The notes under the pieces: generated by a model | The model's input: the letters and a program-made list of their open reading frames with translations, nothing else | The model's database searches: none | Told to the model about the DNA's origin: nothing | Shown here: piece by piece, positions 31,177 through 34,710 of the stretch | Position numbering within the stretch: position 1 is the first letter of the stretch | Layout: each line of letters starts with the position of its first letter | Origin: Jiella sonneratiae | Lineage (GTDB): Bacteria; Pseudomonadota; Alphaproteobacteria; Rhizobiales; Rhizobiaceae | Assembly: GCF_017353515.1 (NCBI RefSeq) | Contig: NZ_JAFMPY010000003.1 | Span: 124,001-188,000, forward strand | Length of the DNA stretch: 64,000 bases | Direction: 5' to 3' | Program-made: the position numbers and the translations under genes

Positions 31177-34100
31177 TCACCGCCCCGGCCGGCCGGTCTT
31201 GCTCGGCCGGCGTTTGCGCTTCTGGTCGGCGGGGTCCTCGTAGGAGCCGCGGCCGATGCGTTCGCGGCGGATGGGGGCGGGGCTATCGTCGGGCGTCGAG
31301 CGCGGCGCACCCCCCTCTGTCCTGCCGGACATCTCCCCCACACGGGGGGAGATCGGCTGCTTCGAGGGCTCCGGCTTTTTCGGCGGGGTCTTGCCGGTGG
31401 GCTTTTCGGTGCGGCCGACGGTCATTTCGTCGAGGGTGTTCTTGCGGAAGTAGGAGCGGGAGCCTTCCCCTCGTCCTTCGAGGCCCGTTCCGGGCACCTC
31501 AGGATGAGGGGAGGTGCCGCCGCGCCCGTCGTCCCTGGATTCTCGGGACGGGGCCCGAGAATGACGATCGTCGGGGGACGGTGACTGGCGGCCCGCCGGG
31601 ACCGCCATGTCTGTGCCGGGGCCCATGTCATCGAGCGACGGCTTCCTGAACAGCGAGGCGGGGGCGGCAACGGTGCCGGAGCCGGGAGCCTTGAGGACTT
31701 CGCCGCGCGGGCCGAAGCGTTCGTCGCCGATCGGGGCGCGGTCGCGCTTGGCCTTCCTGCCGTGTTTGGTGCGGCCGGTGGAGGGGCCCATGACGGATTC
31801 CTCCATGGCGACGGCGTCGGCGAGGGGATCGCCAGAGTCCTCGCTGCGCGAGGGACCCCCACCCGCCCCTGCGGCGCGACCTCCCCTCAAGGGGGAGGTG
31901 GAGGTGCCGGCGCCCGTGCCGCGCCCGCGCCCTTCGACGGCCGTTCCGGTCGCCTCAGGATGAGGGCTCAGTTTTGAGGCGCGGGCGCCATTGCCAGCGT
32001 CCGCGACGGCGTCGAGCCGGACGTTGCCGCCGAATTCCAGCTCTTTCGCGTTCAACTTCTTGATCTCGTCGCGGAGGCGCGCGGCGCGTTCGAAGTCGAG
32101 GTCGGCGGCGGATTCGCGCATCTGCTTTTCCAGATGCTCGATATGGGCGCGCAGATTGTTGCCGACGAGCTCGCCTTCCTTCGCGGTGGGGCCGACGTCG
32201 ACGCGGACGTGGTCCTTTTCGTAATAGGAGTCGAGGATGTCGGCGATCTTGGCCTTGACGCTCGCCGGGGTGATGCCGTGCTCGGCGTTGTAGGCCTCCT
32301 GCTTCTCGCGGCGGCGGGTGGTCTCGGCCATCGCCCGCTCCATCGAGCCGGTGACCTGGTCGGCATAGAGGATCACCTTGCCGTCGACGTTGCGCGCGGC
32401 GCGGCCGATGGTCTGGACGAGGGAGGTCTCCGAGCGCAGGAAGCCTTCCTTGTCGGCGTCGAGAATGGCGACGAGGCCGCATTCGGGGATGTCGAGGCCT
32501 TCGCGCAGGAGGTTGATGCCGACGAGGACGTCGAAGGCGCCGAGGCGGAGATCGCGGATGATCTCGATGCGTTCGAGGGTGTCGATGTCGGAGTGCATGT
32601 AGCGGACGCGGACGCCCTGCTCGTGCAGATATTCGGTGAGATCCTCGGCCATGCGCTTGGTGAGAACGGTGCAGAGGACGCGGTAGCCCTTGTCGACGGT
32701 CTCGCGGATCTCGCCGAGGAGATCGTCGACCTGGGAGCGGGCGGGGCGGACCTCGACCGGCGGGTCGGTGAGGCCGGTCGGGCGGATCACCTGTTCGGCG
32801 AAGACGCCGCCGGATTCCTCGAGTTCCCAGGCGCCGGGGGTCGCCGAGACCGCGACGGTCTGCGGCCGCATGGCGTCCCACTCCTCGAAGCGGAGGGGGC
32901 GGTTGTCCATGCAGGAGGGCAGGCGGAAGCCGTATTCGGCGAGCGTCGCCTTGCGGCGAAAGTCGCCGCGATACATCGCGCCGATCTGCGGCACGGTGAC
33001 GTGGCTCTCGTCGATGAAGACGAGGGCGTTGTCGGGGAGGTATTCGAAGAGCGTCGGCGGCGGATGGCCGGGAGCCCGGCCGGTGAGATAGCGCGAATAG
33101 TTCTCGATCCCCGCACACGATCCGGTCGCCTCGATCATCTCGATGTCGAATCTCGTGCGCTGTTCGAGCCGCTGCGCCTCCAGCAGACGCCCGGCCTTTT
33201 CCAGCTCGGCGAGGCGGTGCTTCAGCTCCTGCCGGATCGACTTGACCGCCTGGTTGAGGGTCGGGCGGGGGGTGACGTAGTGGGAATTGGCGTAGATCTT
33301 CACCGACTTCAGCTCGTCTGTCTTCTGGCCGGTGAGCGGGTCGAATTCGTGGATCGCCTCGATCTCGTCGCCGAACAGCGAGATGCGCCAGGCCCGGTCT
33401 TCGAGGTGGGCGGGGAAGAGCTCGATCGTGTCGCCGCGCACCCGGAAGGAGCCGCGGGAGAAATCCATGTCGCGGCGCTTGTACTGCTGGGCGACGAGGT
33501 CGGCGAGGAGCTGGCGCTGGTCGAGCCGGTCGCCGACGCTCATCTGGAAGGTCATCGCCGTATAGGTCTCGACCGAGCCGATACCGTAGATGCAGGAGAC
33601 CGAGGCGACGATGATCGCGTCGTCGCGTTCGAGGAGGGCCCGGGTGGCGGCGTGGCGCATCCGGTCGATCTGTTCGTTGATCGAGGATTCCTTCTCGATA
33701 TAGGTGTCCGAGCGCGGCACGTAGGCCTCGGGCTGGTAGTAGTCGTAATAGGAGACGAAGTATTCGACGGCGTTGTCCGGGAAGAACGACTTGAACTCGC
33801 CGTAGAGCTGGGCCGCCAGCGTCTTGTTCGGGGCGAGGATCAGCGCCGGGCGCTGGGTGCGCTCGATGACGTTGGCGACGGTGAAGGTCTTGCCGGAGCC
33901 GGTGACGCCGAGCAGCACCTGGGTCTTGTCGTGATCGGCGATGCCGGAGACGAGGTCGGCGATCGCCGTCGGCTGGTCGCCCATGGGCGTATAGTCCGAG
34001 GCGATGCGGAATTTCACCCCGCCCTCGGACTTTTCCGGCCGGGCCGGGCGGTGCGGCAGCCAGACCTCGCCGTTCTTGATCAGCGGGTTGCCCTCGGAGA

Positions 34101-34710
34101 TCAGCTTGGTCAGCGCCTCGACCGTGGCGGTGACGCCGCCCTCGGGCAGGCTTTTGGCGTCTTCCAGCGAGACGTCCATGCCGGCCACCGGATTGAGGCC
34201 GGCGGCGGCGCGCTTCTGCGGGTCGGTGGTGCCGCCCATCGAGGTGCCGCGGGCCGATTTCATCGGCTTTTTGTTCGCGTTCACGCTGTCGGCGCTGCGC
34301 GCCTTCGCTCCACTTGGGCGGGCTGACCGCCCGACGGCCGGTCGGCCTTGCCTCGCTTCGCTCGGATCGGCGCCTGCGTCTTCGGCGGTCTTCGCCGTCT
34401 TGCCGGCGGCCTTCCCGGGGGCCTGATCCGCATCGGCGGCGCGCTCGGCTTTCGTCTCGGCGCTGCGGGCGATCTCGTCGGCCCAGCCGGAGATCGGCCC
34501 GGCGAGAGACGCGCCGGCCTCGAAGCCGGCCTGCGGCGCCTCGCCGAAGCCGCCGGCGCGCGGTCCGTCGGCGCGGGCGGAGGCGTCGGAAAAGTCGCCG
34601 AGCGGGCCGCGGCGGGCCGGGGCGGAGGGGTCGAAGACCGGCTCGTCGCCGACGCCGTCACGATCGGCGGGGGCGGAGCGGCGCGGGGCATTGCGGGGTC
34701 GGGAAGCCAT
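31177..34710 (-). CDS. uvrB: Excinuclease ABC subunit B, greatly extended at both ends
   Basis: DNA-damage recognition helicase of nucleotide excision repair; loads with UvrA and hands over to UvrC. From ATG 34710 it has 1177 residues, against about 670 in E. coli. GTG 34731 is an alternative start. The core is complete: Walker A GVTGSGKT near residue 268, the beta-hairpin block [51 protein letters not shown], and a UVR motif ([22 protein letters not shown]) ending near residue 890. About 225 residues of low-complexity sequence precede the core and about 285 follow it. The C-terminal tail contains at least five palindromic repeat insertions that stay in frame. Confidence 0.96.
31331..31353. 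repeat. Palindrome inside uvrB ([22 protein letters not shown] type)
   Basis: ATCTCCCCCACACGGGGGGAGAT, an inverted repeat within the coding sequence, translated as part of [16 protein letters not shown]. It shares the CTCCCCC/GGGGGAG style of the elements outside the gene. Confidence 0.75.
31465..31515. repeat. Palindromic element in uvrB, family E copy 1
   Basis: The inverted pair CCTCGTCCTTCGAGG and CCTCAGGATGAGG surrounds CCCGTTCCGGGC. It is translated in frame as [18 protein letters not shown] second copy lies at 31930-31966. Confidence 0.75.
31533..31567. repeat. 35-nt palindromic repeat in uvrB, copy 2
   Basis: Identical over 35 nt to 27118-27152, here read through in frame as [11 protein letters not shown]. 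Confidence 0.85.
31880..31898. repeat. Palindrome in uvrB ([16 protein letters not shown] type)
   Basis: CCTCCCCTCAAGGGGGAGG, a near-perfect inverted repeat within the uvrB tail, translated as TSPLRGG. Confidence 0.65.
31930..31966. repeat. Palindromic element in uvrB, family E copy 2
   Basis: CCCTTCGACGGCCGTTCCGG followed by TCGCCTCAGGATGAGGG. It matches 31465-31515 in most positions and encodes [15 protein letters not shown]. Confidence 0.75.

Follow-up and report, generated by a model that had tools for sequence, protein, structure and literature searches.

The uvrB gene of Jiella sonneratiae, which lies in a window of 64,000 nt (positions 124,001 to 188,000 of contig NZ_JAFMPY010000003.1), encodes an enlarged UvrB in which repeat elements of several families are read in frame within the variable linkers of the C-terminal tail. 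Comparison among ten Jiella species revealed that the UvrB core is constant in length, and that the families found at a given linker vary from species to species. We propose that this pattern probably arose from widespread repeats landing in the gene, with insertions retained only where they were in frame and confined to the linkers. In addition, a mini GIY-YIG nuclease gene shortly downstream of uvrB is bracketed by repeats of one of these families and is a candidate for the enzyme that mobilises them.

Counted from the GTG at 34731, the reading frame comprises 1184 aa, of which residues 240-895 matched the NCBIfam equivalog model NF003673 with 1080 bits (cut-off 743), which identifies the protein as excinuclease UvrB; Pfam also placed the UvrB core at these residues. 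Counted from the ATG at 34710, its 1177 aa comprise an N-terminal extension (231 aa), the core (662 aa) and a tail (284 aa). Against the approximately 673 aa of Escherichia coli UvrB, the excess of about 500 residues reported by the first-pass annotation was therefore real, whereas its placement wholly in the tail was not, as the N-terminal extension contributes 231 aa. The tail contains five repeat elements belonging to four families, every one in frame, as that annotation had claimed for at least five palindromic elements of four families, and a sixth repeat (repeat E) lies in the N-terminal extension (Table 1). In total, the elements account for about 104 residues of UvrB and about 75 of the 284 residues of the tail.

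Three of the four tail families were identified as repeats of the J. sonneratiae genome (5.15 Mb), in which strict patterns matched 105 copies of the RIME-like element, 29 of the A element and 14 of this variant of the CGTC-tagged repetitive extragenic palindrome (REP), with no match in reversed-sequence controls for any of the three. The claim that intergenic repeats had been turned into protein sequence thus stands, in that genomic repeats are read in frame in UvrB. The REP at 31536-31566 has the CGTC tag, the stem ATTCTCGGG/CCCGAGAAT and the CCA end, with a loop of 6 nt, one above the usual form. Twelve of the 14 strict CGTC copies occur in inverted pairs 95-116 nt apart, the single ones being that of uvrB and one at 27121. 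In the genomes listed, the RIME-like palindromes, ATCTCCCCC...GGGGGAGATG, often form inverted pairs with a separation of about 100 bp; we assume the name RIME for them as a label only. The two A copies of the tail are 86% alike, and four of the five tail elements overlap a called hairpin, the four linker hairpins of this gene having 8-9 base pairs. Over the 464 kb compared, the only other match to repeat E was an insert in UvrD (79.5%); among the congeners, repeat E was found only in the sister species G009.

The UvrB core measures 1983 nt in all ten Jiella species and is 89-93% identical to that of J. sonneratiae (G000), and the stretch from LNAKELEF to the end of the protein varies from 208 to 351 aa. 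The UvrB of Jiella flava (G002) has 1059 aa, 118 fewer than the 1177 aa of J. sonneratiae; it possesses the N-terminal extension and all three conserved scaffold blocks of the tail and none of the searched elements, and its genome contains no strict RIME-like copy, versus 14-110 in the other nine Jiella genomes. Each of those nine species has elements at some linker. Linker 3, for example, contains a RIME-like element in G000, G004, G005 and G007, a RIME-like peptide interrupted by another palindrome in G008 (as judged by eye), D pairs in G001, G003 and G006, and A elements in G009. Three species, G001, G002 and G007, have an empty linker 2. The last motif of the tail, GSYED...TGRPGR, is kept in frame downstream of the inserts in nine of the ten species, and translation should therefore run through them. 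In-frame genomic repeats in a conserved protein, with a relative that lacks them, are the mark of the events known from Rickettsia palindromic elements (RPEs), and both were found here, in the empty J. flava gene and in the frame kept by nine of the ten congeners.

The hairpins of the linkers exceed chance expectation. In the ten congeneric uvrB genes (G001 without its linker-3 segment), the three tail linkers contain 21 hairpins in 1246 aa, compared with about 5 expected from 30 synonymous-codon shuffles; by linker, the counts are 4, 7 and 10 for linkers 1, 2 and 3, against shuffle means of 1.8, 1.6 and 1.6. Over the 9957 aa of N-terminal extension, core and scaffold, 14 hairpins were called, where the shuffle means add up to about 13.9. 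Because of their shared ancestry, the congeners do not contribute independent counts, and hairpins with long loops may have escaped the caller, whose loop limit was 10 nt.

A fuzzy-pattern search that extended beyond the genus covered 54 uvrB genes (56 were attempted, two of which lacked a gene model). No element was found in the UvrB core of any of these 54 genes, and matches were found in the tail or N-terminal extension of 17, one match in G003 lying upstream of the start; at three mismatches, the RIME pattern also picks up D elements and a few loose look-alikes. Outside Jiella, related insertions occur in other Hyphomicrobiales, and clear in-frame copies were observed in G012, G026, G032, G035, Rhizobium sp. 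L1K21, Mesorhizobium (in the N-terminal extension), Chelativorans and the isolate R129_K. There is much agreement in reading frame: all 11 forward A copies share one frame, all four reverse copies likewise share one, and nine RIME-like cores are read in one common frame.

The supposition that the tail itself was built from repeats was not supported. A loose search downstream of the UVR motif for the motifs KPxLDxM, DEMTVxRTE and GSYE found at least one of them in 42 of 44 UvrBs outside Jiella and all three in 23; the exceptions were G055 and G021, the latter with a frame that stops immediately. Since the element-free tail of J. flava has the scaffold and 42 of the 44 proteins outside the genus have one or more of its motifs, the scaffold is older than the insertions, to which only about a quarter of the tail residues belong. 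The first-pass annotation had named, as an outcome that would speak against it, relatives with the same tail lacking the palindromes; this outcome applies to the scaffold but not to the linkers. As a separate observation, the UvrB tails of Hyphomicrobiales (31180-31830 in the window, and relatives) contain short conserved motifs, some of which are repeated inside one protein.

UvrB is not the only protein affected. In one of 20 spaced stretches sampled, we encountered a uvrD gene with inserts in both the helicase domain and the C-terminal tail (L121:9744-12707). The UvrD loop between DEYQDTN...LLAQ and INICCVGDDDQ was compared in 13 genomes (L272-L284) and is filled, with an intact frame, in nine, which comprise most Jiella species and G035; the exceptions are the frame-broken G001, the short loop of G031, and J. 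flava and G030, which have no repeat-like insert. Pattern matches were found in UvrD of ten of the 13 genomes and in none of G002, G030 and G031: G004, G007 and G009 have RIME-like pairs at a spacing of 105 nt, RIME-like matches occur singly in G000, G001, G003 and G035, and A-type matches, some in the C-terminal tail, occur in G000, G005, G006, G008 and G009. The proposed avoidance of the helicase core thus holds for UvrB, and it is not a general rule because UvrD carries inserts within its helicase domain.

The search for these motifs in other proteins, which had been suggested at the outset, yielded UvrD and one oxoprolinase: of the 29 A copies of the J. sonneratiae genome, those found in frame in recognisable proteins lie twice in uvrB, once in uvrD and once in an oxoprolinase gene. 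Open reading frames (ORFs) over A or CGTC copies numbered 74, of which 18 larger ones (including UvrD) were scanned with Pfam together with the GIY-YIG gene; the 56 unscanned ORFs are mostly smaller and include all of those at L240 and L243, and L239 had none listed. Pfam was used for this purpose instead of a home-made codon gene finder, which was unreliable for a gene-wide census of copies inside and outside genes, as it missed uvrB and called antisense frames. At L242:142-3000, an in-frame A element was observed between matches to hydantoinase A and B domains in one long ORF, with both arms readable.

Table 1. Features of the uvrB region of J. sonneratiae (window coordinates)
Feature	Coordinates	Strand	Remarks
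uvrB coding sequence, 1177 aa from ATG 34710	31177..34710	-	frame open up to GTG 34731
N-terminal extension, 231 aa (197 aa in J. flava)	34018..34710	-	
Repeat E (N-terminal extension)	34266..34351	-	no called hairpin
UvrB core including UVR motif, 662 aa	32032..34017	-	element-free in 54 genes searched
Tail linker 1, 67 aa (18 aa in J. flava)	31831..32031	-	
A element copy 1 (tail linker 1)	31924..31966	-	no called hairpin
D element (tail linker 1)	31851..31903	-	hairpin 31877-31901; outer limits by eye
Conserved scaffold A	31597..31830	-	
Tail linker 2, 47 aa (3 aa in J. flava)	31456..31596	-	
CGTC-tagged REP (tail linker 2)	31536..31566	-	CGTC, AT-starting stem, CCA end
A element copy 2 (tail linker 2)	31468..31511	-	hairpin called at 31493-31518
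Conserved scaffold B	31390..31455	-	
Tail linker 3, 38 aa (47 aa in J. flava)	31276..31389	-	
RIME-like element (tail linker 3)	31308..31356 (about)	-	hairpin 31331-31353
Conserved scaffold C, C-terminus of UvrB	31180..31275	-	
CGTC REP near GIY-YIG gene	30814..30845	-	
CGTC REP near GIY-YIG gene	30685..30717	+	
Mini GIY-YIG nuclease, 95 aa (Pfam), candidate mobiliser	30258..30545	-	0.6 kb downstream of uvrB
CGTC REP near GIY-YIG gene	30142..30173	-	
CGTC REP near GIY-YIG gene	30053..30084	-	
CGTC REP near GIY-YIG gene	29832..29864	+	
Decayed second copy of uvrB 3' end	29701..29789	-	83% over 89 nt, in-frame TAGs

We consider it quite probable that these elements are the survivors of a filter acting on widespread repeats. 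UvrB would keep a conserved, probably disordered N-terminal extension and C-terminal tail, the latter consisting of conserved motifs strung on variable linkers. Palindromic elements scattered over the genome, among them RIME-like elements, A elements and CGTC REPs, would land in uvrB as anywhere else; insertions that hit the core or the motifs, shifted the frame or introduced a stop codon would be purged, presumably by purifying selection, and in-frame insertions in the linkers would be tolerated, translated and eventually lost or overwritten. The outcome would be a quickly changing patchwork of repeat-encoded peptides between constant motifs, and the same filter would apply to the loop within the UvrD helicase domain. 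The composition of the linkers suggests that they are disordered, and the retained peptides may be nearly neutral.

Several observations weigh against this explanation, in which the presence of repeat peptides in mature UvrB is a prediction from the reading frame. In G001, the uvrB frame breaks at linker 3, and reading of the elements does not continue as far as the last motif; this is an 84%-complete assembly of three contigs in which the frames of uvrB, uvrC and uvrD (the last in its loop region) are all broken (L146, L249, L284), which makes a sequencing or assembly error likely, though short of proof. The D pattern matched only the uvrB copy itself in the J. sonneratiae genome, which leaves a multicopy nature of D in this genome unsupported; its recurrence is demonstrated only among the uvrB genes of congeners (G001, G003 and G006), because the genomic pattern matched itself alone. 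As for the reading frames, four Jiella genes share one frame for the CGTC REP, and Chelativorans and G012 use another; other phases were also seen in the second RIME-like copy of R129_K and in loose look-alikes in G020 and G035. The idea that frame choice reflects selection for hydrophilic peptides was only partly confirmed, since in some cases another open frame would have been more hydrophilic. Nucleotide excision repair as a whole is rejected as a target, the element patterns having no match in the 11 genomes searched for UvrA or the 13 searched for UvrC; the length of UvrA is nearly constant, and that of UvrC varies, as judged by eye, only in acidic low-complexity stretches. Finally, element content disagrees with the core-gene tree (supports of 55-93% inside the genus).

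The last conflict implies that recombination or replacement of the uvrB 3' end may account for part of the turnover. The stronger version, in which linker differences come mostly from exchange of 3' ends between strains and not from fresh insertion, is possible but doubtful. In its favour, a second uvrB 3' end was found downstream of the gene at three of the 11 loci checked (some of the others end too soon): a decayed one in J. sonneratiae and further ones in G007 and G009 (L140:1402-1647; L141). In G009, the frame of the second copy is open to its end and includes a RIME-like element absent from the present tail. These duplicates look as if something had inserted at the end of the gene and supplied it with a new one. 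However, the RIME-like and A elements recur throughout the genome, at many sites besides this one, and linker 1, linker 2 and the UvrD loop vary in differing combinations of species. Two small ORFs, possibly a toxin-antitoxin pair, lie between the two uvrB 3' ends of G009 (L140:1698-2149); one bears a weak resemblance to ParE (24.2 bits against a cut-off of 24.4), and the other has no Pfam match.

That the inserted peptides, which are basic and hydrophilic, are useful in tuning the binding of UvrB and UvrD to DNA or to partners seems improbable to us. Recurrent insertion in two proteins of one pathway and the largely consistent frames of the A and RIME-like elements are in keeping with such a role, and REPs have been noted in many repair genes by Di Nocera (2013; PMC3733652). 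However, one and the same linker holds unrelated peptides, from different families, depending on the congener; there are species without any, and the peptides show no conservation.

A role of the elements as DNA or RNA hairpins, in mRNA stability, translation pausing or cruciform formation, with coding incidental, is slightly less probable still. The hairpins are indeed kept at the DNA level, as the stems in the linkers of J. sonneratiae illustrate, but A copies lie mid-gene in both orientations, and several A-bearing linkers (linker 1 of G004 and G007, linker 2 of G005 and linker 3 of G009) have no called hairpin, though the 10-nt loop limit may have missed some. Finally, it is scarcely credible that translation stops before the tail and that the ORF is accidental: high-GC genomes do yield long spurious ORFs, but the motif that ends the frame, GSYED...TGRPGR, is conserved across genera, with GSYE in 34 and a TGRPG-type end in 38 of the 54 uvrB genes.

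For the mobilisation of the CGTC REPs, the region downstream of uvrB offers a candidate. The J. sonneratiae genome contains four mini GIY-YIG genes, a fifth match being UvrC (an 836-aa frame). Three of the four are flanked by CGTC REPs on both sides according to our REP detector, and the fourth is so by eye, with CTA tails instead of CCA. The detector found 14 REPs in 400 kb sampled from this genome and none in shuffled or reversed sequence; at random positions in that sample, REPs on both sides occurred in 0.2%, so that three of four by chance would have a probability of about 4e-8, a rough figure because REP copies are clustered and the loci are related. In J. sonneratiae and its relatives together, 16 of 32 GIY-YIG loci have a REP within 500 bp and 11 have REPs on both sides, with 1.51 REPs per kb near the genes versus 0.167 far from them. 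A later class-wide sample gave six and four of 29 loci, respectively, with 0.43 versus 0.019 per kb, and control positions at 66 other loci (uvrA, uvrB, uvrC, uvrD) had any REP in 1.7% and REPs on both sides in 0.2%. Beyond the J. sonneratiae genome, the loci are the best-scoring match per genome and not a random draw; one UvrC-type frame (L201) was dropped, which reduced 33 loci to 32, and a few of the frames kept, of 190-332 aa, are perhaps not minis. Besides the one in the window, the loci with REPs on both sides include L149, L150, L151, L173, L179, L206 and L226.

REP sequence varies between GIY-YIG loci and is often identical on both sides of one locus. In 17 aligned GIY-YIG proteins, two Tyr, one Arg and one Glu are invariant, which we take to be the catalytic residues of GIY-YIG enzymes. 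The candidate GIY-YIG/REP unit lies directly downstream of uvrB both in this window and in G003. We propose that mini GIY-YIG proteins of about 95-130 aa are the mobilising enzymes of CGTC REPs in Alphaproteobacteria, as a "CGTC REPtron" of which REP dimers would be non-autonomous derivatives and the UvrB and UvrD linkers would be among the landing sites of such repeats, a proposal that could equally well prove right or wrong. Flanking suggests mobilisation and does not prove it. No CGTC REP was detected near 16 of the 32 loci of J. sonneratiae and relatives or near 23 of the 29 class-wide loci, which weighs against a mobiliser role, and bracketing of the kind seen in REPtrons applies to only part of the genes, because it was found at 11 of 32 and four of 29 loci. 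No evidence was found for GIY-YIG genes as movers of all the element families, the association having been tested for CGTC REPs alone. A link between GIY-YIG proteins and REPs was not found in the literature searched. On the other side of uvrB, the window (35192-35857) encodes a Gly/Ser-rich protein built of repeated GTGGTSAGDGMSSSSVGTGG-type units, which has no Pfam match.

The type of event described here, and even the host genes, are already known; what sets Jiella apart is the presence of several families at several sites, with turnover in two repair helicases. For multi-family, multi-site insertion in one gene with turnover across a genus, no precedent was found in the literature searched, most subscription journals lying outside that search. 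The ten species, with a constant core and linkers that are empty or filled, form a natural series that may reveal how selfish repeats become protein of a repair enzyme outside Rickettsia, the best-known case. In addition, the GIY-YIG gene is a concrete candidate for the enzyme that moves CGTC REPs, a class apparently without a dedicated transposase according to Di Nocera (2013; PMC3733652).

In-frame palindromic inserts have been reviewed before (PMC2229807 and PMC10969869). The comparison with RPEs drawn by the first-pass annotation was apt, since in Di Nocera (2013; PMC3733652) RPE-4 and RPE-6 are equated with CGTC REPs and Rickettsia conorii uvrB is listed as a REP host with two single REPs, and one UvrB element of J. 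sonneratiae fits the CGTC form. As with RPEs, short palindromes are read in frame in conserved proteins, uvrB is a host and the CGTC REP type is involved. Unlike the situation in RPEs, several families occur in one gene, and the family occupying a given linker changes from species to species. Jiella is free-living, unlike Rickettsia, the host of RPEs. The RIME-like elements appear to share with rhizobial RIME their palindromes and their frequent arrangement in inverted pairs. RIME elements of rhizobia, on which Osteras and colleagues reportedly worked, are said to be intergenic, whereas the RIME-like copies here also code within UvrB and UvrD.

CGTC REPs are characterised, according to Di Nocera (2013; PMC3733652), by a CGTC (or TGTC/CCTC) tag, a stem of 8-9 bp starting with AT, a loop of 4-5 nt in most copies and a CCA-like tail, and they form mostly head-to-head dimers. 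The UvrB element resembles these alphaproteobacterial repeats in its tag, its AT-starting stem, its CCA tail and the inverted pairs that it forms elsewhere in the genome. Unlike the published CGTC REPs, which are reported there to be apparently without a dedicated transposase, the copies here bracket a GIY-YIG gene. In this respect, the arrangement is similar to that of REPtrons (RAYT genes with GTAG REPs), in which a single gene for a small DNA-processing enzyme is flanked by the REP that it would spread; it differs from them in that the putative enzyme is a GIY-YIG protein and not an IS200-type tyrosine transposase, and in that the REP is CGTC-tagged and not of the GTAG type.

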